Shown here piece after piece: positions 20,573 to 53,678 of a stretch of DNA of 57,104 nt. Source of the stretch: Flammeovirgaceae bacterium BBD 1991-12 (lineage in GTDB: Bacteria > Bacteroidota > Bacteroidia > Cytophagales > Cyclobacteriaceae); contig LYSV01000045.1 of assembly GCA_001657315.1 (NCBI GenBank), positions 1-57,104 of the forward strand, read 5' to 3'. The notes below the pieces were generated by a model. The model was given only the letters and a program-made list of their open reading frames with translations, had not been told where the DNA came from and made no database searches. Position 1 is the stretch's first letter, and each line of letters begins with the position of its first letter. The position numbers and the translations under genes are program-made.

Positions 20573-20881
20573 TGTAGAGATCAGAACTATGGTTGAATAA
20601 ATAAGCGAAAAAAAGCCGGAAATGATCCTCAATTCCGGAATATTACAACATTTGTCCCTGTTTACGATCTATATGACCCTAAAGATTGACGGTAATCATG
20701 CGGAGAGCCGGTCCGGGAATCCGAAATTAGAGATACCGAAAAATTATCCATCCCCGTAGGAGATACTCAGTGGTGTAGATGTTGTTGGCCAATAACAGTA
20801 TCAACACTTGATTAGACCTTATTTTTTTCTTAAATTATTGAATAACAGTTATTTACCACAAAAAAATAATAAATTGTCTTC
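20573..20881. other. divergent intergenic region between HTCS and sigma factor genes
   Basis: About 309 bp that must hold promoters for both genes. An inverted repeat CCGGAA...TTCCGG lies near the HTCS start (around 20615-20637). The last ~70 bp before the sigma gene are very AT-rich (runs of T and A). I see no copy of the TGCAATCGATTGCA palindrome found elsewhere in the window, and no promoter box I can place with confidence. Confidence 0.4.
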
Positions 20882-21487: not shown

Positions 21488-21558
21488 AAAAAAATTCTTC
21501 CTCACTCACCCTTTCGGTTACCGGGAACTGTAATGTATTTGTATTACCCAAATAACCT

Positions 21559-37833: not shown

Positions 37834-38652
37834 ATGCAATCGATTGTCTATTCTCTGTTTTTTATAGGTCTCTCTATTCTCATAGGGCATGGCGAACAAA
37901 AGGAAAAACCCAGTTACCGGCTTGTCTGGGAAGATAATTTCACAGGAAAACAAATTGACCCGAAAAAGTGGGTGTTCCAGACGGGTGACGGCTGTCCTGA
38001 CGTCTGTGGCTGGGGAAACAACGAACGGCAGTACTATACGGATAAGGCAGAGAATGCGAGGATTGAAAACGGGCATTTGATCATCGAAGCCAGGAAAGAA
38101 AAAACAGGATCAAGATCCTATTCAAGTGCCAAACTCGTCACAAAGAACAAAGCTGACTGGCAGCATGGTCGGATTGAGATCAGGGCCAGATTGCCTTACG
38201 GGCGTGGGACATGGCCCGCCTTCTGGATGCTTCCAACTGTTGAAGACAGAAAAATGAAATGGCCCTATGATGGTGAAATTGACATTATGGAGCATGTAGG
38301 GTTTAATCAGGGCATGATCTACGGAACTATTCATACCGGTAAATACAATCACATGATAGGGACCCACAGAACCGACAGTCTGTTTGTAGGAGACACCGAA
38401 AAGAATTTTCACGTTTATGCGCTGGAATGGACCCATGATTCCATGTCGTGGTACGTGGACAACAGGTTGTACAATAAGCTTGACAGGAATGGCGAAGACG
38501 AAAATGCCTGGCCTTTCAATCAGTTCCGGTATCACCTGATCCTGAACCTTGCGGTAGGAGGCAATTGGGGTGGCAAAATGGGCATAGATGACTCCATATG
38601 GCCGCAGAGGATCGAGGTGGATTATATCAAATACTATAAATCCGGGGGTTGA
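37834..38652 (+). CDS. GH16 laminarinase-like endo-beta-1,3-glucanase
   Basis: About 272 residues. Leader MQSIVYSLFFIGLSILIGHG, then a single GH16 domain: LVWEDNF at the N-terminus, HGRIEIRARLPYGRGTWPAFWMLP, and nucleophile Glu148, Asp150 and acid/base Glu153 in GEIDIMEHVG, ending in RIEVDYIKYYK. The arrangement is typical of GH16_3 laminarinases. No T9SS tail or binding module is present, in contrast with the GH16 at 13218. A TTG at 37816 is an alternative start. A LacI-type palindrome overlaps the ATG, which ties the gene to the LacI regulon downstream and not to the sulfatase operon upstream. That also makes the precise start uncertain. Confidence 0.9.
   Translation: MQSIVYSLFFIGLSILIGHGEQKEKPSYRLVWEDNFTGKQIDPKKWVFQTGDGCPDVCGWGNNERQYYTDKAENARIENGHLIIEARKEKTGSRSYSSAKLVTKNKADWQHGRIEIRARLPYGRGTWPAFWMLPTVEDRKMKWPYDGEIDIMEHVGFNQGMIYGTIHTGKYNHMIGTHRTDSLFVGDTEKNFHVYALEWTHDSMSWYVDNRLYNKLDRNGEDENAWPFNQFRYHLILNLAVGGNWGGKMGIDDSIWPQRIEVDYIKYYKSGG
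37835..37848. promoter_or_regulatory. candidate LacI-family operator, site 1
   Basis: TGCAATCGATTGTC matches the 14-bp palindrome TGCAATCGATTGCA at 12 positions. The central CG with inverted AAT/ATT flanks is typical of LacI/GalR-family sites. It overlaps the start codon of the GH16 gene. A possible -7 box TATTTTG lies at 37821-37827, which would put the operator at the transcription start. The regulator gene lies 1 kb away. Confidence 0.55.
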
Positions 38653-38719
38653 TCCGGTCGTTTAGGCAAGGAAATCATAAGAAGGGGCTTCCCCGCCTCG
38701 ATGGTCTTTGTCCGCCCCC

Positions 38720-38743
38720 ATGGTCTGTGTCTTCACAGACCAT
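38720..38743. repeat. hairpin repeat, copy 2 (GGTCTGTG-tetraloop-CACAGACC)
   Basis: Identical over all 24 nt to the hairpin at 16159-16182: stem ATGGTCTGTG / CACAGACCAT with loop TCTT. It lies in the 159-bp gap between the convergent GH16 and LacI genes. A small GGGG-CTT-CCCC hairpin at 38684-38694 precedes it. No T-tract follows closely, which weakens a terminator reading for this copy. Confidence 0.7.
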
Positions 38744-38811
38744 CCTCCGGAACCCTCTAACAAGCTATTTATTTGTTTCAGCAAGAATCCCTTTTCTTGT
38801 AAAAGAGTGTT

Positions 38812-39828
38812 TCAGTAAACCACAAGCTCTTTGCATGAGGAGACCCTCTGTATGAGAACGGGACCAAGCACTACGGTTTTGAATAGCTTTTGATCGTTCC
38901 TGTTATTTGCCAGTTCCAGTAATGATTTTGCCGCCTGTACGCCCATTTCCTTGGGTCTCTGATCCACAGAGGTGATGGGAGGGTCCATGTGCTCAAGGAA
39001 AGGCTCATTGCTAAAGCCTGCAACACCTATGTCTTCCGGTACAGCAAAGCCCCTGGACTTCAATGTTTTTATGGCTCCTATGGCCTTATAGTCACTTGAA
39101 GCAAAAATAGCATCGAATTCATTTCCACTTTCGATCAGTTGTTCAGTCAGATCGGCCCCTATTTCCACAAAGCAGTCACCGCCGTAGATCAGGCCGGGCT
39201 CGATGTCCATTCCATGATCACTCAGAGCCTTTTTATAGCCGCCGAAGCGTTCTTCATAGATTTTCAATCCCAGGTCTCCGTGAAAATGCGCGATCCTTTT
39301 GTACCCCTGCTGAATGAGATGTGCCACTGATTCATAGGCCCCCCTGAAGTCATCGACCTTAACACAGCTTGTATTCACGTTTTCATTTACCCGGTCAAAC
39401 ATGACCAGTGGAATGTTTGAGGTAATAACTTTGCTCAGGTGTTCGTAGTTCTTTCCCGGAGCTACCGATACCAGAATGCCAGATACCCTGGCGCTCAGCA
39501 ACGTTTCAATATTCTCAATCTCACCTTCGTTGGTATCATGTGACTGACACACAATGATCTGATGGCCGGATTCCTTAAAAACCTCTTCAATTCCGGACAA
39601 AACTGCTCCAAAAAAAGCACGATCAACAAAAGGAACGATCACCCCTATGGTTTTGCTGCTACCTTCCCGCAGCGCTTTGGCCACCTGGTTGGTCTTGTAG
39701 CCCATTCGCTCCGCCGTTTCCTGAATAAGTTTCCGTCTCTTTTCGCTGATCCTTGGGTTATTGTTGAGTGCACGGGAAACTGTAGAAGCAGCTATATTAA
39801 GTTCTTTGGCAATGTCGTAGATTGTCAT
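38812..39828 (-). CDS. LacI/GalR-family transcriptional regulator
   Basis: 338 residues. N-terminal HTH MTIYDIAKELNIAASTVSRALNNNPRIS and hinge region (NQVAKALREGSSKTIGVIVPF), then a periplasmic-binding-like sensor domain (~60-330) containing FDAIFASSDYKAIGAIKTLKSRG and VAGFSNEP. It binds palindromic operators with a central CG and releases or gains DNA binding on a sugar ligand. Three matching palindromes are seen at 37835, 43386 and 50506, all at genes of the second glycan system, so it is the probable regulator of that set. Whether it represses or activates cannot be told from sequence. It is transcribed in the same direction as, and 95 bp downstream of, the GH-A enzyme gene. Confidence 0.94.
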   Translation of the reverse strand: MTIYDIAKELNIAASTVSRALNNNPRISEKRRKLIQETAERMGYKTNQVAKALREGSSKTIGVIVPFVDRAFFGAVLSGIEEVFKESGHQIIVCQSHDTNEGEIENIETLLSARVSGILVSVAPGKNYEHLSKVITSNIPLVMFDRVNENVNTSCVKVDDFRGAYESVAHLIQQGYKRIAHFHGDLGLKIYEERFGGYKKALSDHGMDIEPGLIYGGDCFVEIGADLTEQLIESGNEFDAIFASSDYKAIGAIKTLKSRGFAVPEDIGVAGFSNEPFLEHMDPPITSVDQRPKEMGVQAAKSLLELANNRNDQKLFKTVVLGPVLIQRVSSCKELVVY

Positions 39829-39923
39829 ATCAGCGGGGTGGTTAATGTTTGTAAGATGGGCATTGTTTTATGCAATATTATAACGTAATAGGGCAAACAT
39901 CCATTCTTTAAGTTATCAAATTA

Positions 39924-41987
39924 TTATTTTCGGTAAAACCTGTTTTGCAAAAGAGTATCCCTCCCGTATAGTTTCAGAATATAAATACCTGTTCCCAGAG
40001 AGATTATATCTATGGTATCATTCATATACAAACCAGACTGTATTACTTTCCCTTCCAGGGAGGTGATCTCATATTTTTCTATTGAATGCTGAGTCCGGAT
40101 GTTGATCACTTCTGACGAAGGATTAGGGTAAATACGAAGGTCACGTTGTGAGGACGGAGGTATGCCCAGTACCAGATCGCCTCCGTTAAAGTCAAAAACG
40201 ATCCGTGGAGGATTGGGTCTGGTTTCCCTTGAAGCCCAGGTGGTGATTTTGGGATCAACAGTGATATTCCTGAAAACAAAGGAAAGAAAGTCATCACCGG
40301 AGGCCAGCCTGTTAAAGACGTAATGCCGCACGTTCCATTGATGATACTTCAGCTCAGCCGAAATTTCGATCGTATCAAGTGGTACCAATTCATCATCTTC
40401 ATATCGGGTATTCCAACTGATGGTGTTTTCACGCCAAGGCAGGTCACCAATTCCGTAAATAACCGTTTTAACCCCTTCGGTTCCACCGCCATATAATTCA
40501 ACTGTGGCAGTTTCCATGGCTTCATTAACTGACGAGAGGTCGAAGCCGACATAGGTTTCCCTGATGAAGCCCTGGTCTTTGTTGTCAGACAGCCGTGTTA
40601 ACAAACGCTCGAAATCCGTAACGCCATGATCCTCAGCCTCGAAAGCACCATCCCTTATGTAAGCATCCCTGTCGGCGAATATTATAGTTGGATCGTCACT
40701 CACCAGCGGGTCCAGCTTTACCTGGAAGGGGAAATTGCCCAAAGCAATGTTGCCATCATTGTCCCTTACAAAATAGAACAATCTGTATTCGTTCAGATTA
40801 TCCGGGGTAGAAAATATTCCTTCAGTAGCGTTGGTCTGGGTAAACAGCCCGGGAATATAGGGGAGAACATGTGTTTCATCCGAAATGGCACCTTCATCTC
40901 CTGATTCCGGTTGAATGAGATATTCAAAGGTAAGTGAGTTTACATCTTCATCTTCTACCTCCAGTATGATCCGGTTATCTTCTTCCGACTTTATCACTAC
41001 ATTTTGATTTACAGCTTGACCGTTCAGGGTAACTGAGGTTATTTTTGGCGCCCGGTTGGCAGGATATACACCCGACCAGTGGTAGGTCATCACATCTACT
41101 GCTTCTGTTTCGTATCCGTCAAAAAAGAGTCCGTACCATGTAGGGGTTTCTTCAAACTTATTGCCCCAAAGGAATACATAGGAACCTACCAGCTTATCCG
41201 TATCCGGAAGTATTTCATTTTCGTAGCGGTCGAAATAAAGCGCTGCTTTTTGTGTGCTGGTCAGCTCAAGGGTAGCTCCCCAGCTCGTACTGGGCGATTC
41301 CCATTGCCCATTCGGACCCCACTCCGTAATCAGGTAGGGTTTGTTCCACACACCCTGGTCGATAGTATTTTCAACACCACCAATACAGCCGTAGCAATTC
41401 ACGCCCAGCATGTCGAGGTCCGGTGCCCTTTGCATAATATCACTCAGCTTGGTGCTGCTCAGTCCCGCGGTTACCGTAAGGGTGGGATGCTTCCCATCTA
41501 CCTGGTGGATCATTTCCGAAATATCGTTGATCGCGTCCCACACCTTAAGGTTGAGACTGCTGTAGCTTACACCCAGTTCTACCTCATTACCTATGGCCCA
41601 TAGCAGAACGGCACGGTGGTCCTTGTACTCTTCCACCCATTTTCTGAAACCTTCCAACTGTTCAGTTACAGCCGACTCGTTATTGTAGTCAAAACCATGC
41701 TGCTGGTGACCCACCCATAGCCCCATACAAACGGTCAGTCCCAGGGAATGGGCCGAATCCAAAAGAGTAAGTGTGTTTTCATCCGTCCCCCAGGTCCTGA
41801 CGGAGTTGCCGCCATAATCGGCCAGCCTGTCGAGAAAGTCGCTTCCTCCTGCACCTTTAATGTAGTAGGGGTCTCCTCCTCTCAGGAGGGTCCAGTTACC
41901 GTCGGATTCCACCAGCTCTACGGTAACGGCCTGGCTGAATAGCTGGGTGGAGAGGAAAAGCAGGAGTAAGAGTTGAATAAGTTTCAT
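39924..41987 (-). CDS. clan GH-A glycoside hydrolase (GH2/GH5-like barrel) with DNRLRE-type module and T9SS tail
   Basis: 687 residues. Signal peptide ends near LFSQ (19). The TIM barrel (~20-310) has the start IKGAGGSDFLDRLADYGGNSVRTWG, acid/base Glu135 in LLWAIGNEVE and nucleophile Glu222 in YLITEWGPNGQWE, as in GH2, GH5 and GH72 enzymes; it lacks the N-terminal jelly roll of full-length GH2. A beta region (~315-440) follows. Next comes a DNRLRE/CBM96-like module (~445-600, with ADRDAYIRDG, YVGFDLSSV and ISWNTRY) and a type A T9SS tail (LRIYPNPSSEVINI). The substrate is unknown; a beta-glucan is plausible from the laminarinase and LacI neighbours. It lies 61 bp downstream of the lipoprotein pair in the same direction, across a hairpin. 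Confidence 0.85.
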   Translation of the reverse strand: MKLIQLLLLLFLSTQLFSQAVTVELVESDGNWTLLRGGDPYYIKGAGGSDFLDRLADYGGNSVRTWGTDENTLTLLDSAHSLGLTVCMGLWVGHQQHGFDYNNESAVTEQLEGFRKWVEEYKDHRAVLLWAIGNEVELGVSYSSLNLKVWDAINDISEMIHQVDGKHPTLTVTAGLSSTKLSDIMQRAPDLDMLGVNCYGCIGGVENTIDQGVWNKPYLITEWGPNGQWESPSTSWGATLELTSTQKAALYFDRYENEILPDTDKLVGSYVFLWGNKFEETPTWYGLFFDGYETEAVDVMTYHWSGVYPANRAPKITSVTLNGQAVNQNVVIKSEEDNRIILEVEDEDVNSLTFEYLIQPESGDEGAISDETHVLPYIPGLFTQTNATEGIFSTPDNLNEYRLFYFVRDNDGNIALGNFPFQVKLDPLVSDDPTIIFADRDAYIRDGAFEAEDHGVTDFERLLTRLSDNKDQGFIRETYVGFDLSSVNEAMETATVELYGGGTEGVKTVIYGIGDLPWRENTISWNTRYEDDELVPLDTIEISAELKYHQWNVRHYVFNRLASGDDFLSFVFRNITVDPKITTWASRETRPNPPRIVFDFNGGDLVLGIPPSSQRDLRIYPNPSSEVINIRTQHSIEKYEITSLEGKVIQSGLYMNDTIDIISLGTGIYILKLYGRDTLLQNRFYRK

Positions 41988-42001
41988 AGGACAAGAAAAG
42001 C

Positions 42002-42020
42002 CAGCTCCTGCCTGGAGCTG
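42002..42020. terminator. stem-loop between lipoprotein and GH-A genes
   Basis: CAGCTCC (42002-42008) and GGAGCTG (42014-42020) form a perfect 7-bp stem with a 5-nt loop. On the plus strand it is followed by ACTTTTTT; on the minus strand, the transcribed direction, by GCTTTTCTT. It therefore has the look of a bidirectional intrinsic terminator but lies inside an apparent operon. It may reduce read-through into the enzyme gene. Confidence 0.5.
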
Positions 42021-42048
42021 ACTTTTTTGAGGTCATTCTCAATAATTA

Positions 42049-42735
42049 TTAATTGTTTGGATTCTGGTCATACACATCTGCATCTATGATGCGGATGTTG
42101 TCAACATAGTATGGATTGTGATCATCGCGAACAGTGACAACATTGTCTGAACTCCATCCATTACTCTCCATGGGCAACTCGTACCAACCTTCCGGATTCA
42201 AGGTGCCAGTATGACCGGCATTGAAAATCATACCTAAATAATCAATATTTGTCTCATCAACATTGGTTGGGTCAAGGATAAACCCTTGATTACCGTCTCC
42301 TGTAGTTGTCGGAGCTAAGGAGAAGTCCACAGGGTCTCCTGAAGTATTGTATCCAACACTAAACGTCACCGTTTGCCATTCATCAAATTTTGTAACCGTG
42401 CCGAATAGTTGCAAACCTCTACCGGTGGGAAAATCACCCCACAGCGCTTCATTTCCTAACTCTATTTGGATCGGAACTACTTTATCAATTGAATCCTGTA
42501 GTTCAAAGCTCCAACCTTTTCTTCCAAAGTCTTCAAGAGTGTAAGAGAAGTTTTCAACGGATTGATTAGCTTCATTTCCTGAATCTTCAGGATTATTATG
42601 TACCGTTACATCATCCTTTCCTACAAATTCATAGTAAATATTCATTTGAAGGACTCTTTCTCCTGACCTTAGGGCTGCAACCTCTTCTTCTGGAAGTGTT
42701 TCCGTTAATTTAAGGTAAGCGTTACAAATCCCCAT
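42049..42735 (-). CDS. C-terminal part of a frameshifted surface lipoprotein (glycan-binding-like domain)
   Basis: 228 codons if read from an ATG at 42735, but this is probably the continuation of the gene at 42705-43331. The two frames overlap by 31 bp. Adding one base to the TTT run at 42709-42711 (AAA in the coding strand) joins them as WGFVTLT-LKLTETLPEEE, which reads naturally. The segment is beta-rich and ends in PYYVDNIRIIDADVYD, a phrase common at the end of jelly-roll carbohydrate-binding domains. On its own it has no signal peptide and could not be exported, which supports the frameshift interpretation. Whether the shift is a real mutation or a sequencing error is open. Confidence 0.7.
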   Translation of the reverse strand: MGICNAYLKLTETLPEEEVAALRSGERVLQMNIYYEFVGKDDVTVHNNPEDSGNEANQSVENFSYTLEDFGRKGWSFELQDSIDKVVPIQIELGNEALWGDFPTGRGLQLFGTVTKFDEWQTVTFSVGYNTSGDPVDFSLAPTTTGDGNQGFILDPTNVDETNIDYLGMIFNAGHTGTLNPEGWYELPMESNGWSSDNVVTVRDDHNPYYVDNIRIIDADVYDQNPNN

Positions 42736-43331
42736 TCATTGACAGAATTCCTTAAAACCCTGACAACTTTGTTCGCACTATTTGTCGGATCATCAATGGG
42801 ATGTTCCATTACGACGCTATTTTGAATACCTCCCCATTGATCAGTAAAAGAAGACCATTCAATAAATTCTATACTGCTGTTGGGTATATCGTCCTGAAGA
42901 TTACTGATCAGCAATGGTGTTCCTCTCAAGTCACCATTCTGAATGGTTATGGAAACATCAAAATTGTCACCCAGCACTTCAACCTGTGTGTCTGTTACAC
43001 TAAAAGAAAATGAAGTAGGGCCAGTTGTAGCGTCATCCTCAATTGTAACTTCATGGGTAAATTCATCCTCAAGTGTAGCTGATGAATACGTCTTGATCTC
43101 TGTACCGTTCAAAGACACGCTTTGTAAACCAGCTTCCGATGAAACGGTAATGGTAAACGTGACAATATCCCCCTGGAATGGAGAGGTATTGTCCGCAACC
43201 ACGGCAATTGCTGGAGCATCGAAAATGACTACTTCATCATCATCAGAGCAACCCACTGCCAGAATTAGTCCGGTGACAAGCACCAATGATCCAAGAATTC
43301 CTCTTGATTTTGTAACATGCTTCATACGCAT
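42705..43331 (-). CDS. N-terminal part of a frameshifted surface lipoprotein (SusE/SGBP-like)
   Basis: 208 codons. Leader with lipobox AVGC followed by SDDDEVV, the acidic surface signal. Next is an Ig-like domain of the kind found in SusE and surface glycan-binding proteins (SPFQGDIVTFTITVSSEAGLQSVSLNG), then the start of a second beta domain that breaks off at WGFVTLTLN and a stop. The continuation lies in the frame that begins at 42735. An ATG six bases inside (43325) is an alternative start. The full protein would be about 427 residues, a usual size for a surface glycan-binding protein. A candidate promoter and LacI operator lie upstream, shared with the divergent FG-GAP gene. Confidence 0.78.
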   Translation of the reverse strand: MRMKHVTKSRGILGSLVLVTGLILAVGCSDDDEVVIFDAPAIAVVADNTSPFQGDIVTFTITVSSEAGLQSVSLNGTEIKTYSSATLEDEFTHEVTIEDDATTGPTSFSFSVTDTQVEVLGDNFDVSITIQNGDLRGTPLLISNLQDDIPNSSIEFIEWSSFTDQWGGIQNSVVMEHPIDDPTNSANKVVRVLRNSVNEWGFVTLTLN

Positions 43332-43359
43332 TAGACTGTTTAGATTGTCAAAAAAAAAT

Positions 43360-43390
43360 TAAATATAGGCTCTCGAAAATATTTATGCAA
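43360..43390 (-). promoter_or_regulatory. candidate Bacteroidota promoter for the lipoprotein gene
   Basis: On the minus strand, TTG (complement of 43388-43390), 20 bp, then TATATTTA (complement of 43360-43367). This fits the Bacteroidota sigma layout of TTG/TTTG at -33 and TAnnTTTG at -7, with the last base differing. The -33 element overlaps the LacI palindrome, so a bound regulator would block it. Confidence 0.45.
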
Positions 43391-43399
43391 TCGAATGCA
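43386..43399. promoter_or_regulatory. candidate LacI-family operator, site 2 (divergent promoter region)
   Basis: TGCAATCGAATGCA, one mismatch from the palindrome TGCAATCGATTGCA. It sits in the AT-rich region between the minus-strand lipoprotein gene and the plus-strand FG-GAP gene, so one bound dimer could control both. A plus-strand TAATTTG at 43408-43414 could be the -7 box for the FG-GAP gene. Confidence 0.62.
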
Positions 43400-43595
43400 C
43401 AAAATTTTAATTTGTGATCGTTTTGTTTTTTAAAATTTTTAACTTCAAAAAACTTAATTTTTTCAATGCTGTTTAACTGATTGATTTCTAGTTAGATGAT
43501 GTGCTCTAATCATTTTGCATGTTATTGGCAGAAAGAATATCATGGTCTGCGAGGCCATCGGCGATAAGCGATGTCCAATTCATAAATATTTGCGA

Positions 43596-46500
43596 ATGAA
43601 ATACCTTTATATATTGCTTCTCCTCTGTTTTACGCTGTGGCTTCTGTCCTGTAGTCAGGAAGAGCCTAACAGACAGCCACAGATTACCCTGTATGAAAAG
43701 CTTGATGGTCAGGAGACCAATGTGAAGCACTTTAATACCATATTACAGACTGAGATAATGAACTTCTTTAGCTGGAAGTACATCTATAACGGTGGCGGAG
43801 TGGCACTTGGTGATATAAATAATGATGGGTTGGTAGATATTTACTTGAGTAGTAACCTGTATTCGGCTAAGCTATACCTGAACAAGGGTAATTTCAAATT
43901 TGAGGAAATATCCAAACAGGCGGGAGTAACTGCTAATGAAGGGTATAAAACGGGTGTGGCCATGGCAGATGTTAACGGAGATGGCTACCTGGATATCTAT
44001 GTTTGCCGGGATGCCTTCCCTGACAAAGACAAACGAAATAACCTGCTTTACATCAACAATGGGGATCTTACCTTCACCGAATCTGCCTCCCGGTATGGGC
44101 TTAATGATGACTCATATTCAACCCAGGCCTACTTCTTTGACTTTGATCTTGATAACGACCTTGACTTGTATTTGGTGAATCACCCGGGAGATATGGATCA
44201 GTCGGTTACGGCCCGGCTGAAAGATGTTTCCGGCAGAACAATAAGATATTCGAAGTACTCAGATCTTATGACCTCGGATAGGTTATTCAGAAATGATGGA
44301 GATAGTTTTATGGATATCTCTGTTGATGCCGGAATAACGAATTACACGTTTGGGCTGAGTGCTGCTATTAGTGACATCAACGATGATGGCTACCCCGACC
44401 TGTATATTGCCAATGATTTTTTTGAACCGGACCAGATCATGATCAATGATCAAAATGGCAGGTTCGTTGAAAAAACGGACCATTATTTCAAGCATATGAC
44501 CAACAGTAGCATGGGTTCTGATTTCGGGGACATCAACAATGACGGGGGAGAGGATCTGATCGTGATGGATATGCAACCCCAAACCCATTACCGCAAACAG
44601 ACTCTGGCCACACCTATGAACTATAATGCTATATCTGTTCTTATCGACTATGGGTACAAGCAGCAGATCATGCGCAACATGCTGCATTTAAATACCGGTG
44701 GTAACAGCTATTCCGAAATAGGGCAGTTAACAGGTTTGTCCGAGACGGATTGGAGTTGGGGATCATTGATCTTTGACATGGATAATGACGGCTTTAATGA
44801 CATTTTCGTTTCCAATGGCATCCGCATGGATATGACCAATTTGGACTATATGCAGTTCAAACATGATTCCATTCAAAAAGCCGAAGCCCGGAACCAAAAA
44901 GCTGTGAATCTTGAAAACTGGAGACAATGGGTGGACTTCATCCCCTCACACAAGTTGAGGAACTTTGCCTTTCAAAACCGGGGGGATCTGAAATTTGAAG
45001 ATATTTCTGAGAACTGGGGATTTATAGAGAAAACATTTTCAAATGGTGTGGCTTATGCCGATCTCGATAATGATGGTGATCTGGATCTTGTAATGAATAA
45101 CCTGGAGGATACTACTTCAATCTACAGGAACAACGCCAATTCAATACTAGGTCACAATTATCTGAAGGTCTTCCTGAAGGGGCCTCAAAAAAACACATTC
45201 GGCATTGGATCGAAGCTGACCCTCTATGGCCAAAATGGTATTCAATCAAGGTTTTTGTATGCACAGCGAGGCTATTTGTCATCTGTGGAGCCAGTGGGAT
45301 ATTTTGGTCTGGGCAGTGAAAGCAGTATTGATTCACTTATTGTACAATGGCCGGATGGTGGGGTCAGCATGATCAGGGACCCACAGGTCAATACCAGCAT
45401 TTATGTTGATTATATGGAAGCCAGAAATGATCTGCGTATCAAAAAGGTTGATAACAAGGTGTTTTCAACGCAAACACTGGGTGATTTCGTTCACAAGGAA
45501 AATAAATACGAAGACTTCCGGGTAGACCTGCTTTTGCCGCACGGGCTGACACAAATGGGACCAGCCACGGCGGTGGAGGACATTAACAAAGACGGGGTCG
45601 TTGATGTATTTGTTGGAGGTTCCAAAAACGAAGAGGCGTGGTTCCTGTTGTCGGATGGAGATTCTTATGTAAAACTAACCAATGATGTCTTTGAACAGGA
45701 CAGGGAGTATGAAGACGGCGGGGCTGTGTTTATCGATGTGGACGGTGATGGTGATCATGACCTGTTTGTGGCCTCCGGTGGTGGTGAATTGGGAGATGGA
45801 GAAGGTGATCTGGCAGACAGGTTGTACGTGTATGACGCCGGTACATGGAGAAGACAATCGGAGTTTACACAAAACTCCAACAGTTCCGTAGTGAAAACAC
45901 TGGATGTGGATCAGGACGGAGATCAGGATCTCTTTGTGGGAGGATACTTTAAGCCTGCTGATTATCCGTATCCGTCCGGATCGTACTTTTTAGAGAACAA
46001 CAATGGCAGGTTGGAAGTGAACATGGCATGGACAAATTCACTGGATGGGCAGGTGGTGAATGACGCTGCGGTCTGTGACCTGAACAAGGACGGTTTTGCA
46101 GACCTGATCACCGTCGGGGAATGGTCCCCCATAACGATATATATCAATAAACAAGGTGAACAACTTGAAAACCGGTCCACAGAATATGGACTTTCCGGTT
46201 TTACAGGTTGGTGGCATAGCCTGGAAGTAGTGGATATTGATGGTGATGGTGACCTGGACATCCTGGGGGGTAATCTTGGGAAGAACAGCAGGTATATTGC
46301 CACCCCTGCCGAACCGCTGAGGATTTACGCCAATGACTTTGATAACAACGGGGATCATGAATACATCATAACCTATTACAATGGAGGTGAAGAATGGCCC
46401 ATGCCGAGAAAAGATGTACTTACCAGTGTGGTAAAGGCGATCAACAAGGATTTCAATGTGTATGACAAGTATGCAAAAGCCAGCGTGGAAGATATTATTG

Positions 46501-46898
46501 ATACCTCGGAGGCTTTTAAAAAAGAGGCCAGATACACAGCAAGTATGTTATTCATCAATGAAAACGGTCGGTTCACAGGCTCTGAATTGCCGGTACAGGC
46601 ACAATTTTCACCTGTTTTTGACTTTGAAACGCTTGATTTCGACGGTGATGGCAGGCTGGACATTCTGGGAATAGGTAACCGGTACGATGCAGATGTAGAA
46701 CAAGGGCCCTATGATGCCTCCAAAGGCTTTTTGCTGAAAAACGAAGGCGAAGGCGTTTTCACTGATGTGCCGATAAACCGGACCGGCCTTGTCGCAGACA
46801 GAAATGCACGAAAACTGGTCAAGACGAATCGGAACGGAGTTACAGGTTTTTTGGTGATTAATAATAACGATACAATACAGTCGATTCGATTAAAATAA
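43596..46898 (+). CDS. FG-GAP/VCBS-repeat lipoprotein with ASPIC/UnbV domain (first of tandem pair)
   Basis: About 1100 residues from the ATG at 43596; the upstream ATG at 43515 would place 27 polar residues before a clear lipoprotein signal, MKYLYILLLLCFTLWLLSC (Cys19). The chain is mostly FG-GAP propeller blades with calcium-binding loops, e.g. DINNDGLVDIYLS, DVNGDGYLDIYV, DFDLDNDLDLYLVN, DINDDGYPDLYIAND, DLDNDGDLDLVMNN. An ASPIC/UnbV domain lies midway (~510-600, GIGSKLTLY...RGYLSSVEPVGYFGLG...VQWPDGG), followed by a second propeller. No catalytic motif is seen. Such proteins often accompany SusCD in Bacteroidota, but their role is not established; surface glycan binding is the likeliest. 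A LacI operator lies about 200 bp upstream. Confidence 0.88.
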   Translation: MKYLYILLLLCFTLWLLSCSQEEPNRQPQITLYEKLDGQETNVKHFNTILQTEIMNFFSWKYIYNGGGVALGDINNDGLVDIYLSSNLYSAKLYLNKGNFKFEEISKQAGVTANEGYKTGVAMADVNGDGYLDIYVCRDAFPDKDKRNNLLYINNGDLTFTESASRYGLNDDSYSTQAYFFDFDLDNDLDLYLVNHPGDMDQSVTARLKDVSGRTIRYSKYSDLMTSDRLFRNDGDSFMDISVDAGITNYTFGLSAAISDINDDGYPDLYIANDFFEPDQIMINDQNGRFVEKTDHYFKHMTNSSMGSDFGDINNDGGEDLIVMDMQPQTHYRKQTLATPMNYNAISVLIDYGYKQQIMRNMLHLNTGGNSYSEIGQLTGLSETDWSWGSLIFDMDNDGFNDIFVSNGIRMDMTNLDYMQFKHDSIQKAEARNQKAVNLENWRQWVDFIPSHKLRNFAFQNRGDLKFEDISENWGFIEKTFSNGVAYADLDNDGDLDLVMNNLEDTTSIYRNNANSILGHNYLKVFLKGPQKNTFGIGSKLTLYGQNGIQSRFLYAQRGYLSSVEPVGYFGLGSESSIDSLIVQWPDGGVSMIRDPQVNTSIYVDYMEARNDLRIKKVDNKVFSTQTLGDFVHKENKYEDFRVDLLLPHGLTQMGPATAVEDINKDGVVDVFVGGSKNEEAWFLLSDGDSYVKLTNDVFEQDREYEDGGAVFIDVDGDGDHDLFVASGGGELGDGEGDLADRLYVYDAGTWRRQSEFTQNSNSSVVKTLDVDQDGDQDLFVGGYFKPADYPYPSGSYFLENNNGRLEVNMAWTNSLDGQVVNDAAVCDLNKDGFADLITVGEWSPITIYINKQGEQLENRSTEYGLSGFTGWWHSLEVVDIDGDGDLDILGGNLGKNSRYIATPAEPLRIYANDFDNNGDHEYIITYYNGGEEWPMPRKDVLTSVVKAINKDFNVYDKYAKASVEDIIDTSEAFKKEARYTASMLFINENGRFTGSELPVQAQFSPVFDFETLDFDGDGRLDILGIGNRYDADVEQGPYDASKGFLLKNEGEGVFTDVPINRTGLVADRNARKLVKTNRNGVTGFLVINNNDTIQSIRLK

Positions 46899-46962
46899 TA
46901 TGTGGTCTTACCTGTTCTGATCGTGCAGGGCGACCTGATGTTATTCCATATCGTTAAGGGGA

Positions 46963-49900
46963 ATGGTCAGGTACCTCCAATTTGGTTTGAAAAAGATATT
47001 TACAATATGCCACCTCGATAGGAATTTGATCGCTCTGGTTTCTTTCCTTGTCGTCCTGTCGCAGTTCTCCTGTCAGGATCAGGACGGTTTCCGCCTGGTC
47101 AAAAACTCGGGAATTGACTTTAACAACCAGCTGGATCCCAATGACAGCCTTAACGTACTGGATTACGAGTATTTCTACAATGGTAGCGGAGTGGCGGTCG
47201 GTGATTTTAACAATGACGGCCTCGAAGATATCTTTTTTGGAGGGAACCAGGTAAGCTCAAGGCTTTACCTCAATGAAGGCGGGCTCAGATTTTCTGACCA
47301 GACTGCTGCATATGGTGTAACGACTGACCGTTGGGTATCGGGTGTGAATGCCGTGGATATCAATGCTGATGGCTGGCTGGACCTCTACCTATGCACCACC
47401 GCTTACCATGATACCACATTCAGGGAGAACCTGCTTTTCATCAATTCCGGCAAGGGATCCTTTGAAGAAAGAGCTGTGGACTTTGGGCTGAACACTCCGG
47501 ATTTTAGTACACAGTCCTATTTTTTCGATTTTGACAGAGATGGTGACCTGGACATGTACCTGCTGAATCATTCACGAAATGACCATGACCATAGTCTCAT
47601 TGTAAACCCCAACAACACCGGGACGGCCAAAAGTACCGACAAACTGTTCCGGAACGATGATGGCTTTTATACCGATATCAGCGACGAAGCAGGCATCCGG
47701 TATGAAGGTTATGGTCTCAGCGCCAGTATACTGGACGTCAATCGGGATGGTTGGCTGGACGTTTATGTCGCCAATGACTACATTTTTAACGACATTCTTT
47801 ACATCAATAATCGGGATGGGTCTTTTAGGAATGCCATCACTGAATATATGGCTCACACCAGCCAGTTTTCCATGGGTATGGATCATGGAGATGTCAATCG
47901 GGACGGTTATATGGACATCATGGTAGCTGATATGCTGCCTCCGGACAACTACCGGCAAAAACTAATGAGCGGGCCAATGAATTATCACCTGTATGAGCTA
48001 TCACTGGAGCTTGGCTACTATCCTCAATTCATGCGAAATACCCTTCAGATGGGACTGCCCAATGGCAGGTTTTCCGAGCAGGCTTTTATTGCCGGGGTGG
48101 CCATGACGGACTGGAGCTGGTCTGTGCTAATGGAAGACTATGATCTGGACGGCTGGGAAGACATTTTTGTATCCAACGGCTATGTGAAGAACATTACGGA
48201 TCACGATTTCGGCTCCTATTCCTCCTCTCAGCGTGGGGGACGGAGAACAAAGGGCAGAAAACGGGACAATCTCATGAATGCTATTTCGGAACTGGATGGG
48301 ACCCGTATCCCGAATTATATTTTCCGGAATGACCAGGGCAAGGGATTCATCGATATGAAGGAAAGCTGGGGCATGGATCAGCCGTCATTTTCCAATGGGG
48401 CAGCTTCTGCGGATTTCGACAAGGATGGTGACCTCGATCTGGTGGTCAGCAATATCAATGAAACAGCCTTTCTTTATGAAAATCACGGGAATGATAAAAA
48501 CGGATCCATTCAGTTGCGCCTTGTGACAGAAAGGGGTACGGCGCCGGAGGGTGCTACGGTAAAAGTCACATCCTGCCTTGAAGGAGTTACTGTAAAATCC
48601 AGGATTTCCAATAAAGGCTATCTGTCCACCAGTTCAAAATATATGACCGTGGGTATAGGACAGTGTCAGGAAGCGGAAGTGGAGGTGATCTGGCCTTCGG
48701 GTAAATATTCAACCCTTAAAGGTGTAAAACCGGGTCAGGTGATAACTATTGAGGAAATATCTGCTTTGCCAATGAAAGACAGTCCGTTCCCTGAACCGAT
48801 GCAGGAATGGATTGTAAGGGATTCAACGATCGAACTGAACCAACCCGAAAACCGGTTTGTGGATTTTAACTTCCAATCCATGCTGCCGGTAAAGTTTTCA
48901 GAAAATGGCCCTGCAGTTTCATCTGTTGATTTGGATGGTAATCATTGGGATGATCTGATCATAGGTGCTCCCATGGGTGTTGAAACCAAAATAGGTTTTC
49001 GGAATGATGATAAGACCATAACATGGAAGACGCTGGAAGGATCCGCTTATTTTGAGGATCAGGGGATACTGGTCTTCGATGCCGACTCAGACGAAGATCT
49101 GGATATCTACGTTGCCTCCGGAGGTTATGAGGTTTTTCCAAATACCATCCAGCTCAGGGACCGTCTTTATCTTAATGACGGCAATGGTAATTTTAAGATT
49201 GCCTCGGATGCCGTTCCTGCCATCAATCAAAACAGCTCAGTGGTCAGAGGGACGGACTACGACCTGGATGGTGATATTGATCTGTTCATAGGAGGGGACG
49301 TTTATCCCCGGAAATACCCGCTGGCAGCTCAAAGCTACCTGCTGGAGAATGAAAATGGAGTGTTCACAGAGGTGACTATGGATAAGATCCCTGAGATTAA
49401 GGACATCGGCATGATAAAAACAGCACTTTGGTCAGATTTTAATGATGACGGACGTATGGACCTGATCGTAGCGGGATTTTTCACAGGAATCATTTTTTTT
49501 GAAAACACACTCCAGGGGTTTGTGAAGGTGGCTGACCCCTACGATGGTCCACTGAAAGGCTGGTGGCTCTCCCTGATGGGAACGGATATTGACCTGGATG
49601 GAGATATCGATTTCTTGGCAGGCAACTGGGGCGAAAATGTGATCTATCCGCCGACGTCCGACTTTCCGTTAATAACATACGTCAACGATTTCGACCAAAA
49701 TAATACCGTTGATTTTATAGCTTCCTTCCCTCAGAATGGCCGGTACTATCCTTTTCCGCCCAGGAACATGCTCCTGGATCAGTTGAACATTTTAAAAAAG
49801 GAGTTTCCCAACTACAGGTCCTATGCCAGTGTGAGCATGAATGATCTTCCCTTGCAGAAGCTGCCTTCGTCTTTGAAGTACCGGGTGGAGAGTTTCAGAT

Positions 49901-50436
49901 CCGTATTGTTGCGCAACCAGGGGGGCTCAAAATTCACCATTGAAGAGTTGCCTGCTGAAGTGCAGACGGGACCTGTAACAGGGATCACTACGATAGATCT
50001 GAATGGCGACGGTTTTGATGAGGTCATTCTGACTGGTGGATGGGAAGCTACCGAAGTTATTTATGGTCCTCAGGATGCTTTCAAGGGAGCTATCCTGATC
50101 AATAACAATGGGCGGTTATCGTGGGAAAAAGATTCATTTATCTATTCAGACGGTGCAACAAAAGCCCAGAATCTCATCTGGTCAGACAGCATTCCGGACA
50201 TGGTTATCGGTAAGGCAGGCGGGAGCATAGAGACTTACCACTTAAAGAGTAATTTCAGACCTGTACAGGTAGATCATTCAGTAAGAGAAGTACAATATAA
50301 CATCGATGGGCGTGTAAAACGTACGGAGATCTATCTTGGGCATGCACATTACTCACAAAGCAGTTTTAAAATACCTGTCCCCACAAACGCCGGCCCGGTA
50401 AAACCCTTCTTTTTTGTGCAACCTATTGACCGTTAA
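46963..50436 (+). CDS. FG-GAP/VCBS-repeat lipoprotein with ASPIC/UnbV domain (second of tandem pair)
   Basis: 1157 residues. Leader with lipobox QFSC (Cys37). The architecture mirrors the preceding gene: propeller with calcium loops (DFNNDGLEDIFFGG, DINADGWLDLYLC, DFDRDGDLDMYLLN, DVNRDGWLDVYVAND, DFDKDGDLDLVVSN), ASPIC/UnbV domain (~530-615, GYLSTSSKYMTVGIG...VIWPSGK), then a second propeller ending in FFFVQPIDR. Corresponding blades align with the first protein (YNGSGVAVGD / YNGGGVALGD; MRNTLQMG / MRNMLHLN; TDWSWSVL / TDWSWGSL), so the pair arose by tandem duplication and then diverged. The gap between the genes is 64 bp and SusC follows after 137 bp. Confidence 0.88.
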   Translation: MVRYLQFGLKKIFTICHLDRNLIALVSFLVVLSQFSCQDQDGFRLVKNSGIDFNNQLDPNDSLNVLDYEYFYNGSGVAVGDFNNDGLEDIFFGGNQVSSRLYLNEGGLRFSDQTAAYGVTTDRWVSGVNAVDINADGWLDLYLCTTAYHDTTFRENLLFINSGKGSFEERAVDFGLNTPDFSTQSYFFDFDRDGDLDMYLLNHSRNDHDHSLIVNPNNTGTAKSTDKLFRNDDGFYTDISDEAGIRYEGYGLSASILDVNRDGWLDVYVANDYIFNDILYINNRDGSFRNAITEYMAHTSQFSMGMDHGDVNRDGYMDIMVADMLPPDNYRQKLMSGPMNYHLYELSLELGYYPQFMRNTLQMGLPNGRFSEQAFIAGVAMTDWSWSVLMEDYDLDGWEDIFVSNGYVKNITDHDFGSYSSSQRGGRRTKGRKRDNLMNAISELDGTRIPNYIFRNDQGKGFIDMKESWGMDQPSFSNGAASADFDKDGDLDLVVSNINETAFLYENHGNDKNGSIQLRLVTERGTAPEGATVKVTSCLEGVTVKSRISNKGYLSTSSKYMTVGIGQCQEAEVEVIWPSGKYSTLKGVKPGQVITIEEISALPMKDSPFPEPMQEWIVRDSTIELNQPENRFVDFNFQSMLPVKFSENGPAVSSVDLDGNHWDDLIIGAPMGVETKIGFRNDDKTITWKTLEGSAYFEDQGILVFDADSDEDLDIYVASGGYEVFPNTIQLRDRLYLNDGNGNFKIASDAVPAINQNSSVVRGTDYDLDGDIDLFIGGDVYPRKYPLAAQSYLLENENGVFTEVTMDKIPEIKDIGMIKTALWSDFNDDGRMDLIVAGFFTGIIFFENTLQGFVKVADPYDGPLKGWWLSLMGTDIDLDGDIDFLAGNWGENVIYPPTSDFPLITYVNDFDQNNTVDFIASFPQNGRYYPFPPRNMLLDQLNILKKEFPNYRSYASVSMNDLPLQKLPSSLKYRVESFRSVLLRNQGGSKFTIEELPAEVQTGPVTGITTIDLNGDGFDEVILTGGWEATEVIYGPQDAFKGAILINNNGRLSWEKDSFIYSDGATKAQNLIWSDSIPDMVIGKAGGSIETYHLKSNFRPVQVDHSVREVQYNIDGRVKRTEIYLGHAHYSQSSFKIPVPTNAGPVKPFFFVQPIDR

Positions 50437-50505
50437 TGGTTAACCTCCATGATGTCGTACATGTGACCGTTTAAAAAAAAAACTTCATTTTTCGTAAAAT
50501 GATTG

Positions 50506-50519
50506 TGAAATCGATTGCA
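50506..50519. promoter_or_regulatory. candidate LacI-family operator, site 3, upstream of second SusC
   Basis: TGAAATCGATTGCA, one mismatch from TGCAATCGATTGCA. It is 54 bp before the SusC start codon. A possible -7 box TATATTTA lies just downstream (50530-50537), matching the box seen at 43360-43367, and a TTG at 50503-50505 abuts the operator (24-bp spacing, longer than ideal). A bound dimer would sit across the promoter. Confidence 0.6.
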
Positions 50520-50573: not shown

Positions 50574-53500
50574 ATGAGAGGACTTTACTCGATCTTATTT
50601 TTACTTATCGGTTCATCATTATTCGCTCAGAAAGTAGCGATAACAGGAAAGGTGACCGATGAGACGGGAGAAGCGCTGGTGGGGGTTACGGTAGTGGTAA
50701 AGGAGACTACCCAGGGCACCGCCACGGACATAGAAGGTAACTATCAGCTACTGGTAGACCCGGGAGCCATACTTGTTTTCAGCTCCATTGGTTTCAAATC
50801 ATTTGAAACAGCTATTAACAACAGGTCAAAAATTGATGTAACCCTGGAGGTGGACATTACAACACTGGATGAAATAGTGAAAGTGGGCTATGGCACGGTC
50901 AATAAACGAGAGCTGACCAACGCCGTTGCTACGCTCAAGGCCGAAGAGATCGCCAATGTGCCGGTGCCCAGTATTGATCAGGCTATTCAGGGAAGAATAG
51001 CCGGAGTACAGGTGACCAAGGGCACAGGAGCACCCGGTGGAGGGATCAACGTACGTGTGAGAGGTACAGCGTCCATTAATGGTGGCCAGGAGCCTCTTTA
51101 CATTGTAGATGGCATCCCTATCAACAATACATTCACCGGCTCAGTGGGACAGGGCGGTACGCAGTCCGGCGAGGGTTTTGCCGGAAATGAGGTACTTAAT
51201 GGCATGGCAAATATCAATCCGGATGATATTGAATCCATCGAGGTATTAAAGGACGCGGCGGCGGCCAGTATTTACGGTTCACGGGCAGCTAACGGGGTGG
51301 TGCTCATTACCACCAAGCGGGGAAAACCAGGGGCGTTGAAAGCTGATCTTAAATTTTATACCGGCATCACCTTTCAGCCACGCCGGTACGACCTGCTTAA
51401 TGCCGAACAGTACGCCTCTGTGCTTAATGAAGGGTTCATCTCTTCAGGTAATACTGTAGATGTGATCAGGGAAGCCCGGTTTGATACCGACTGGCAGGAC
51501 GAGATCTTCCAGGTGGCTCCTATGACGAGCGCTACGCTAACCCTTAGCGGCGGTAATGAAGAGACACAATATTTGTTTTCGCCTTCCTATTTCAAGCAGG
51601 AGGGGATCCTCATCAACTCTCAGTTTGAGCGATATTCCTTCAGGGCAAACCTGGACCATAATTTTGACAACGTAGTTAAGCTGGGAACAAACCTTATGAT
51701 CAGCAATACCATCAGCCAGCGTCTGCGGAACTCCGGAGGTGCCAATGTGCAGGATGCATTTAACAACAACAGTGTATTTGGACCCAGTGTATTATCATCA
51801 GCCCTGGTGTACAGCCCTCTGGTACCTGTGGTTGATCCTTTGACCAATCAGTTTGCAACAGATACGCTTAACTTTTTTGTCAATCCGGTTGCTTTGGCCA
51901 CTTTGAACGACCTGGAGGCCAATGGATTGCGGCTTCTCGGAAATATGTTCGTGGAGGTCAATTTTCTTAAACACTTCAATCTGAGGTTGAACGTAGGAGC
52001 AGATGTAAGGGACGAGAACGAAGTATTTGTAGGCCTTCCTCCTCCAACGGCTGTCGGAGGGGGCAGTGTTTTGAGAAGGTCCTTCCGTGAAACACTTTGG
52101 GTAGGTGAGACTTTTCTCACGTTCGATAAAAAAATAAATGAAAACTTCACCGTAAATGTACTTGCAGGAGGTAGCTTCCAGCGCTCCGAAAATGACGGCT
52201 TTTCCATCGGGGTGCAGGATCTGCTGATCGATGATGTGCTTACATTGGCTGCGAGTAGTGAATTTACCACTCCCCGATCCGATGGTGACAACCGGTTCAG
52301 TATTGCCTCGGCTTTTGCCCGTTTTCGTTTTGGGGTGGCAGACCGGTATTTCTTTAATGCCACGGTTCGCAGGGATGCCTCCTCCAGATTTGGGGAGAAC
52401 AGACGTATTGGTAATTTTCCTTCGGCTTCCTTCGCGTGGAATATCATTGATGAGCCGTGGTTTAATTTCAATCCGGTAAGCAATCTCAAGTTCCGGGCCT
52501 CATGGGGACTTACGGGGAATGACCAGATCTTTCCCTTTGGTTATTTGGCCACACTTGATGTTCTGGAGGAAAATTATATAGGTGAGAATGGTGTGGTCAT
52601 CCGTAACCTGCGGAATCCCAATTACTCGTGGGAGTCAACCGAGCAGGTGGACATAGGTCTTGAGATTGGGTTGCTGGACAACAGATTACAGATCACCACC
52701 GATTACTTTATAAAAACCACCACGGACCTGCTATTGCAGCGTCCACTTCCTGCCAATGCTGGCATAAGCTCAGCCTTTAACCCTTTTGTAAATATCGGAG
52801 ACATGGAAAACAGGGGATTTGAGCTGTCCATTGATGCCTTCATCATCAATAAACCGGATTTTGAATGGCGGTCTAATTTCAATATTTCGTTTATCCAGCA
52901 GGAAGTGCTGCGCCTCCTGAATGGTGAGGCCGTGGTAGGAGGTTCCTTTGGATTTGCCAATATATTCCAGGAAGGAGAAGAACTCTCCTTTCAGCTCTAT
53001 CAGTTAGAGGAATTTGTTATTACTGAAGATTCAAACCCGGATGACAATGTTAATGACGCCGGATACAGAAGAATCAGGGACCTGAATGATAACGGAATGC
53101 GTGATGGTGGCGACCTTACCATTATGGGTAGCCCCAATCCTGATCATTTTGGTGGATTCACCAACAACTTCAGATACAAGAACTTTGACCTGAGCATTTT
53201 CATGCAATGGGTGTATGGCAATGATATCATTAACTCCACACGGGGGTTTGTACAGGGGCCGGGCAAGCCGGACCTTACCCGCTCCGGTACCAATCTCACT
53301 ACCGAAGCGCTTGATCGGTGGCAACAGCCCGGGGACCGCGCCACTTTTCCCCGGATCGACTATGCAAAACCGGGTTTTTCCGGCTCCGACCTGAGAAACC
53401 TGGGGGTACCGACCGATCAGAATCTGGAAGACGGATCTTATCTCAAGCTAAGGAATATTTCTCTTGGCTATAATTTTCCCAGGACGATCACTGAAAGATT

Positions 53501-53678
53501 GCATGTGGGATCGTTGAGGACATACATTACGGCCAATAACATTGCCGTACTGACCAGGTACTCAGGCTATGACCCTGAGGTGAACCACACCGTCACCAAT
53601 AATATTGGAGCGGGATACGATAGCGGTACTTTTCCGCAGGCTCGTGCAGTGATCGTGGGTGTTAATGTTGGATTTTAA
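50574..53678 (+). CDS. SusC-like TonB-dependent transporter without STN domain
   Basis: About 1034 residues from the ATG at 50574, which starts a clean signal peptide (MRGLYSILFLLIGSSLFAQ). The frame is open to 50499, but that would place 25 residues before it and run through the operator. A carboxypeptidase-regulatory-like domain follows directly (VAITGKVTDETGEALVGVTVV), then EIVKVGYGTVNKRELTNAV (TonB-box region), the plug (SIDQAIQGRIAGVQVTKGTGAPGGG...IEVLKDAAAASIYGSRAANGVVLI) and the barrel ending VGVNVGF. It lacks the STN domain of the SusC at 22743, matching the absence of FecI/FecR here and the presence of a LacI operator. It pairs with the SusD 11 bp downstream. Confidence 0.95.
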   Translation: MRGLYSILFLLIGSSLFAQKVAITGKVTDETGEALVGVTVVVKETTQGTATDIEGNYQLLVDPGAILVFSSIGFKSFETAINNRSKIDVTLEVDITTLDEIVKVGYGTVNKRELTNAVATLKAEEIANVPVPSIDQAIQGRIAGVQVTKGTGAPGGGINVRVRGTASINGGQEPLYIVDGIPINNTFTGSVGQGGTQSGEGFAGNEVLNGMANINPDDIESIEVLKDAAAASIYGSRAANGVVLITTKRGKPGALKADLKFYTGITFQPRRYDLLNAEQYASVLNEGFISSGNTVDVIREARFDTDWQDEIFQVAPMTSATLTLSGGNEETQYLFSPSYFKQEGILINSQFERYSFRANLDHNFDNVVKLGTNLMISNTISQRLRNSGGANVQDAFNNNSVFGPSVLSSALVYSPLVPVVDPLTNQFATDTLNFFVNPVALATLNDLEANGLRLLGNMFVEVNFLKHFNLRLNVGADVRDENEVFVGLPPPTAVGGGSVLRRSFRETLWVGETFLTFDKKINENFTVNVLAGGSFQRSENDGFSIGVQDLLIDDVLTLAASSEFTTPRSDGDNRFSIASAFARFRFGVADRYFFNATVRRDASSRFGENRRIGNFPSASFAWNIIDEPWFNFNPVSNLKFRASWGLTGNDQIFPFGYLATLDVLEENYIGENGVVIRNLRNPNYSWESTEQVDIGLEIGLLDNRLQITTDYFIKTTTDLLLQRPLPANAGISSAFNPFVNIGDMENRGFELSIDAFIINKPDFEWRSNFNISFIQQEVLRLLNGEAVVGGSFGFANIFQEGEELSFQLYQLEEFVITEDSNPDDNVNDAGYRRIRDLNDNGMRDGGDLTIMGSPNPDHFGGFTNNFRYKNFDLSIFMQWVYGNDIINSTRGFVQGPGKPDLTRSGTNLTTEALDRWQQPGDRATFPRIDYAKPGFSGSDLRNLGVPTDQNLEDGSYLKLRNISLGYNFPRTITERLHVGSLRTYITANNIAVLTRYSGYDPEVNHTVTNNIGAGYDSGTFPQARAVIVGVNVGF

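Follow-up and report, generated by a model that had tools for sequence, protein, structure and literature searches.

A putative LacI-type regulon with three operator-like palindromes at a SusC/SusD locus of Flammeovirgaceae bacterium BBD 1991-12

Organization of the locus

The stretch of DNA analysed here, referred to below as the window, is contig LYSV01000045.1 (57,104 nucleotides; C26) from assembly GCA_001657315.1 of Flammeovirgaceae bacterium BBD 1991-12, a genome of 8.59 Mb in 282 contigs. An earlier note, made from the sequence alone, had drawn attention to three copies of a 14-bp palindrome around a gene for a LacI-family regulator. Our analysis suggests, with a probability of roughly three in four, that a local LacI repressor (38812–39828) acts through these three palindromes on the neighbouring carbohydrate genes. 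Protein families were assigned by scanning 17 window proteins with Pfam, and mismatches of the sites were counted against the 14-bp consensus of the earlier note, TGCAATCGATTGCA. The sites and genes concerned are listed here, with identities to their counterparts in the congeneric genome G012.

37835–37848, plus strand: site 1, TGCAATCGATTGTC; overlaps the GH16 start codon (ATG 37834–37836); 2 mismatches, 14.6 bits; identical in G012
43386–43399, plus strand: site 2, TGCAATCGAATGCA; 1 mismatch, 15.8 bits; counterpart at the same place in G012
50506–50519, plus strand: site 3, TGAAATCGATTGCA; 1 mismatch, 19.1 bits; counterpart at the same place in G012
37834–38652, plus strand: GH16 glycoside hydrolase, 272 aa (Pfam PF00722); ortholog G012:C240:19255-20061, 80% identical
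38812–39828, minus strand: lacI-family regulator gene, 338 aa (Pfam PF00356, PF00532 and PF13377 over the cut-off); G012 ortholog 78% identical
39924–41987, minus strand: protein with Glyco_hydro_2_C, CBM96 and a Por secretion tail (Pfam); without match on G012 contig C280
42049–43331, minus strand: lipoprotein-like gene, judged from its N-terminus, in two overlapping frames (42705–43331 and 42049–42735); without Pfam match
43515–46898, plus strand: FG-GAP/ASPIC protein 1 (Pfam; longest frame, probable ATG at 43597); 75% to G012
46963–50436, plus strand: FG-GAP/ASPIC protein 2 (Pfam); 74.5% to G012
50574–53678, plus strand: SusC-like TonB-dependent receptor (Pfam), ATG at 50574; 89% to G012
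53690–55243, plus strand: SusD-like protein (Pfam); 85% to G012
55252–56349, plus strand: PKD-domain protein (Pfam); 61% to G012
56362–57104, plus strand: first part of a GH31 gene (Pfam), cut by the contig end; the rest is probably on contig C151

By the Pfam assignments, the SusC/SusD pair with the PKD-domain protein and the GH31 part represents a polysaccharide utilization locus (PUL). Other regulators encoded within the window are an HTCS (16454–20632) and an ECF sigma/FecR pair (20882–22575).

Operator-like sites in the window

The three 14-mers reported in the earlier note at 37835, 43386 and 50506, with one or two mismatches each, were all present and had two, one and one mismatches, respectively. 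Their placement in the lipoprotein-like/FG-GAP region and before the second SusC gene was likewise found as described, and that of site 1 at the GH16 start was corrected: the site covers the start codon itself. The lipoprotein-like gene starts 54 bp from site 2, and the probable ATG of FG-GAP 1 (43597) lies 197 bp from it on the other side. Site 3 is intergenic and lies 54 bp before the SusC ATG (50574). All three sites and their G012 counterparts are even palindromes with a central CG, the form expected of LacI-family operators.

An operator matrix was built from 56 sites upstream of LacI relatives, chosen by a likeness of at least 11 of 14 positions to the consensus of the earlier note and so not fully blind. 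The top three scores in the 57 kb belonged to sites 3, 2 and 1 (19.1, 15.8 and 14.6 bits), and the fourth was 4.4. Three sites of at least 14.6 bits did not occur together in any of 60 windows simulated with a first-order Markov model. A loose count in the window was not above chance (4 matches with up to 3 mismatches vs. 3.27 expected from shuffles). Sites 2 and 3 are two of the 4 one-mismatch places in the whole genome. No good site was detected by consensus and matrix scans in the first 37.8 kb of the window, hence none before the sulfatase genes (judged from their translations and the earlier note) or the FecI/FecR genes, in line with what had been noticed before. The division of the window into two separately controlled glycan systems was sustained insofar as the sites are separate from the rest of the window, but three regulators (LacI, HTCS and ECF sigma/FecR) are to be counted rather than two systems.

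The motif in LacI relatives

A search of named genomes with the window LacI protein alone gave no match. With an alignment of the window, G012 and paralogous LacI proteins as the query, we obtained at least 561 encoding stretches in named genomes, nearly all of Bacteroidota. The best 80 of these, nearest hits of a biased search, were 43–49% identical to the window LacI. A 14-mer with at least 11 consensus matches was present within 400 bp upstream of 56 of the 80 relatives, compared to a mean of 0.98 for permuted palindromes (n = 300). One of the 300 controls reached 38 of 80 at this threshold, probably due to its resemblance to the TGTAATCGATTACA form. At 13 matches, the count was 23 of 80 vs. 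at most 1 for the permuted controls. In a consensus-free tally of perfect 14-bp palindromes upstream of the 80 relatives, the most frequent were TGTAATCGATTACA (14 relatives) and TGCAATCGATTGCA (9 relatives), followed by a palindrome with a count of 2. In another set of upstream regions, a site with at least 11 matches was found in 19 of 45; a 46th region (L085) was excluded as an artefact of a contig-edge gene. Judged by these upstream regions, the motif TG[C/T]AATCGATT[G/A]CA is the operator common to the whole LacI subfamily. No paper matched the 14-mer in a literature search limited to its exact text in one paper library.

The proteins were compared column by column for 77 of the 80 relatives (L207, L253 and L254 were left out) and for 8 of the 10 other lacI genes of the genome (C40a and C28 were left out). 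Column 14, in the recognition helix, was Ala in the window LacI, its G012 ortholog and all 77 relatives, and differed from Ala in 6 of the 8 paralogs. The window LacI agrees with the 77 relatives at 9 of the 11 columns specific to their subfamily.

Conservation in a congeneric genome

A clear lacI ortholog was found in one of the 37 other genomes searched, the congeneric G012 (78%; next best 48%). SusC had an 89% match in one of 294 other family genomes, and the next best outside its own genome was at 43% (two candidates scored per genome). Contig C280 of G012 keeps the order lacI, lipoprotein-like gene, FG-GAP 1, FG-GAP 2, SusC, SusD and PKD; the GH16 and GH2/CBM96 genes had no match on this contig. 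The GH16 ortholog is situated on C240, which ends 313 bases after it, and could be linked to lacI over a longer distance. Chemotaxis-type genes, recognized from their translations, lie at least 4 kb away from it on C240.

G012 has a site at all three genes (GH16, the lipoprotein-like/FG-GAP region and SusC). The G012 counterpart of site 3 departs from the window sequence at positions 1, 3 and 12 of 14, and that of site 2 at positions 10 and 12. The matrix gave 19.1 and 15.9 as the top two scores on C280 (next 8.3) and 14.6 as the top score on the fetched part of C240 (next 3.9). We read the three sites as one probable regulon because a matrix derived from other species ranks just these three, and because G012 keeps both the gene order and a site at all three genes.

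Gene context

The GH31 gene at the window end and a partial GH31 gene that starts contig C151 (L061) represent complementary parts of the family (profile positions 1–62 and 221–327 of 328). On C151, the second GH31 part is followed by GH92 and then by GH28 on the opposite strand. In G012, the neighbour of PKD is a protein with 77% identity to the GH92 of C151, and a GH28 gene comes next; contig C151 therefore probably follows the window. No GH31 gene was present among the listed frames between PKD and GH92 in G012. A further one-mismatch site in the GH28 gene of C151 (TGCAATGGATTGCA, with a broken central CG) was rejected, as it is inside a frame and not kept in G012.

The lipoprotein-like gene (42049–43331, minus strand), split into two overlapping frames in the window, is a single frame in G012. 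The split may be a frameshift or a sequencing error.

Proposed regulation and alternative explanations

We propose that a ligand-free LacI dimer would sit on the three palindromes and block transcription. At site 2, the targets would be the lipoprotein-like operon, to which lacI probably belongs, and possibly the FG-GAP genes on the divergent side. At site 3, susC-susD-PKD and the GH31 and GH92 genes that probably follow would be blocked, and at site 1, GH16, with the site covering its start codon. A sugar from the imported glycan would then release LacI from the DNA. The sequences directly show the sites, the gene order, the conservation in one other species and the subfamily motif, whereas binding, repression, operon structure, the role of this LacI rather than a paralog as the binder, and the ligand are what we infer.

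The known promoter box of Bacteroidetes has the consensus TAnnTTTG. At site 3, both genomes have TTG directly before the site and TATATTTA 24 bases from the site start. At site 2, both have TAT[A/C]TTTA on the lipoprotein strand, 32 bases from the site start, and TTG 20 bases before that box. The boxes near the two sites match the consensus at 5 of its 6 fixed letters. A LacI dimer bound at either of these sites would overlap such a promoter or lie next to it, which fits repression. The operon from the lipoprotein-like gene appears to continue to lacI, which is probably transcribed from the same start at site 2. Autoregulation via a site directly before lacI was rejected: within 400 bp upstream of the gene, none was found in the window genome or in G012, the best 14-mers of the two having 9 and 8 matching positions.

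Several observations, here and in the two paragraphs that follow, weigh against the local repressor. The lack of a site upstream of lacI is one, autoregulation being reported for 72% of the studied LacI regulators (PMC4052901, excerpt). These stretches are AT-rich, and a one-mismatch match to the promoter box turns up in them about once per 35 to 65 bases; because near matches are this frequent, only the position shared between both genomes speaks, weakly, for the boxes near sites 2 and 3. Near site 1 in G012, no promoter-box match was found. The locus was present in one other species only, so the footprint rests on one pair.

It is unlikely, though worth serious weighing, that only sites 2 and 3 are operators and that site 1 is a chance match in the GH16 coding start. 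Site 1 has two mismatches and a damaged right half, and fewer than 1% of LacI-family sites are located in coding regions (PMC4052901, excerpt). The first GH16 residues may be kept as protein: among 36 reciprocal gene pairs (51 pairs less 15 without a matching ATG pair, the GH16 pair being measured separately), 3 were also identical at 14 of 14 start positions. Those three pairs, however, were 62–77% identical over the next 60 bases, compared to 43% for GH16 (26 of 60, ungapped). At the GH16 start, 17 of 17 bases including site 1 (TTATGCAATCGATTGTC) are identical in the window and G012, and only 28 of the 97 upstream bases are identical without gaps; a gapped alignment of the upstream region gave more scattered matches. 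Exact conservation stops at the site 1 edge within a diverged signal peptide. The score of site 1 is the third best in the 57 kb, far above the next, and the one-mismatch match in the C151 GH28 gene was not kept in G012. Coding constraint thus appears the weaker reason for the conservation of site 1, and the comparison with G012 removed our initial doubt about the site, which had arisen from its coding position and damaged right half. Site 1 is probably a real operator because all 17 bases are kept amid diverged flanks, with GH16 off the lacI contig in G012. The best reading is of a start-codon operator unusual in position and a repressor otherwise of the ordinary kind.

A quite improbable alternative is that the sites are real operators bound by a different LacI encoded in the genome, possibly one that controls a wider regulon. 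The genome has 11 lacI genes and 28 matches with up to 2 mismatches, 25 of them outside the window, vs. 4 for the reversed pattern. Near-identical sites occur upstream of other lacI genes: CGCAATCGATTGCG at 98 bp (C60), TACAATCGATTGTA at 51 bp (C33) and CGCAACCGTTTGCG at 149 bp (C68). The C60 gene has a second close site, CGCAATCGATTGCA, and so carries nearly the same sites as those of the window. The earlier note had taken many matches scattered at unrelated genes as a sign against its proposal, and this was found in part: besides places beside the C60 and C33 lacI genes and sugar genes, the 25 include 9 matches inside frames. The other matches were 17 outside frames, one on the GH16 start codon and one ambiguous near a SusC start. 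A simple frame caller gave 16 outside frames, three of which overlap the edge of a frame by no more than 5 bases; site 3 was added as intergenic. The same motif being common to the LacI subfamily and found at other lacI genes of the genome, three copies alone do not assign a regulator. In this respect the earlier proposal went too far, whereas its LacI-type operator and its grouping of the three sites into one regulon held.

Conserved similar sites before the phosphoenolpyruvate carboxykinase (PEPCK) gene, near alpha-amylase genes and near a sodium:solute symporter gene would also fit a wider regulon, and the PEPCK site of G012 has an ATCGAT core. In the window genome, however, the core of these four sites is AACGAT or ATCGTT instead of ATCGAT. 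Two of the three window sites flank this lacI in both species, and the 9 of 11 columns kept by the window LacI are typical of relatives, most of which have an ATCGAT operator. Conserved linkage to lacI names the regulator better than the motif does, and the LacI encoded at 38812–39828 is the preferred binder.

Eight of the 28 matches had a G012 counterpart with up to 2 mismatches within 17 bases: the three window sites and those on C33, C24, C57, C195 and C100. None of the 9 in-frame matches had a counterpart vs. 8 of the 19 others. The C195 pair was counted as conserved at an offset of 17, and the C68/C297 pair (offset 57) was not counted; a match scored as not conserved may hide a counterpart with at least 3 mismatches or a region without match in G012. 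In the five congeners searched, 20 to 29 matches were found vs. 4 to 12 for the reversed pattern, and the contrast was weaker in G012 (29 vs. 12). That all matches are chance palindromes without a role is hardly credible: the window count at three mismatches equals chance and the reversed control in G012 is fairly high, but the matrix test, the genome excess of 28 vs. 4 and the conservation in G012 all speak against it.

Some sites elsewhere in the genome deserve mention in their own right. The conserved LacI-type site before the PEPCK gene is located at G000:C100:15206 and G012:C224:3793, which suggests that one LacI paralog touches central metabolism. Conserved sites of related type are at C57:15051 and C195:73495, near alpha-amylase genes, and at C24:69531, near the sodium:solute symporter gene. 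Contig C5 (L058, L059) has four copies of CGTAATCGATTGCA or its complement (2864, 3711, 21192 and 21378) near SusC-type, GH31 and other genes, and is without a lacI match. These copies are perhaps a second regulon with a regulator encoded elsewhere.

Possible ligand and origin of the regulator

Laminarin or other glucans, considered earlier as inducers, received no support beyond the presence of GH16, and the kin of the regulator point weakly to uronates. GH16, GH31 and GH92 do not name one substrate. Neighbour genes were listed for 15 of the 80 LacI relatives, and among the relatives covered hexuronate genes were frequent neighbours. From 7 of the loci, 9 proteins encoded next to the regulator were scanned. 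Three of the 9 passed the curated cut-off, as glucuronate isomerase, tagaturonate reductase and gluconate 5-dehydrogenase. The other six were below it: one galactarate/altronate-dehydratase-like, two galacturonidase-like and three others, including a transporter-like protein. In the tree, the window LacI pairs with its G012 ortholog on a long branch of their own. This branch falls inside a 59-row group (94/99, not starred, an open fork) but not within the 52 rows of the main group of relatives (100/99).

Hexuronate catabolic families were absent among the 17 Pfam-scanned window proteins, a view that ends at the contig ends. Elsewhere in the genome, UxaC matches were found on C157 and C256 and an altronate-dehydratase match on C157. 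The best scored SusC paralog of the same genome (47%) is also on C157, where genes of the mannitol-dehydrogenase family and for altronate dehydratase lie at a distance of approximately 9 to 11 kb. Because of the neighbours of the relatives, the kept columns and the setting of this paralog, a uronate-type ligand is weakly favoured over a laminarin oligosaccharide, as a guess. We offer only tentatively, as a possibility of less than even odds, that a LacI from a branch normally running cytoplasmic hexuronate breakdown has been recruited to the direct control of a SusC/D uptake locus, with its FG-GAP/ASPIC proteins and with GH16 via a start-codon operator, whether GH16 is adjacent or not.

With this proposal, a SusC/D locus that also encodes FG-GAP/ASPIC proteins gains a concrete, testable regulon, and the operator matrix, which works for a LacI subfamily across Bacteroidota, could annotate many loci. 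The window also illustrates how three regulators of different kinds may occur together beside carbohydrate genes.

Comparison with known regulators

The window LacI shares its two-domain architecture, a LacI HTH and a periplasmic-binding-protein-like sensor domain, with the CcpA, PurR and LacI repressors of known structure; its best PDB match is CcpA 1rzr (E 1.9e-49). The palindromes of the window likewise have the usual LacI-family form, most sites of the family being even palindromes with a central CG (PMC4052901, excerpt). According to the same excerpt, more than 75% of the sites are positioned 30–140 bp upstream; sites 2 and 3 fit this at 54 bp, and site 1 on the start codon does not. The window LacI differs from these repressors in being apparently a local rather than a global regulator, and among the 21 NCBIfam families listed, that of CcpA among them, it passed the cut-off of none.

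The hexuronate-type LacI regulators of the UxaR, UxuR and KdgR branch resemble it in the operator of the relatives, TG[C/T]AATCGATT[G/A]CA, and in 9 of 11 columns. These names are taken from excerpts of PMC4052901 and PMC3878776, and our relatives may be the same proteins. Four LacI regulators in a table of PMC3878776 (excerpt) control uronate pathways, and a LacI regulator of hexuronate genes, UxuR2, is described in Algoriphagus (PMC5507952, excerpt). The window LacI differs from these regulators by its own branch and by its position beside a SusC/D and FG-GAP locus instead of hexuronate catabolic genes.

For PULs, three Bacteroidetes-specific systems are named in the excerpt of PMC3878776: SusR-like, HTCS and ECF sigma/anti-sigma. 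LacI control of such loci is not new, since LacI-family regulators or HTCS are stated to control the xylan systems reported (PMC12125979, excerpt). Like the Bacteroides PUL regulators SusR, HTCS and ECF sigma/anti-sigma, the window LacI would control a SusC/D locus, and an HTCS and an ECF/FecR pair are encoded in the same window. It belongs to a different protein family, and SusR and HTCS use direct-repeat sites (PMC3878776, excerpt), whereas the sites of the window LacI would be palindromes.

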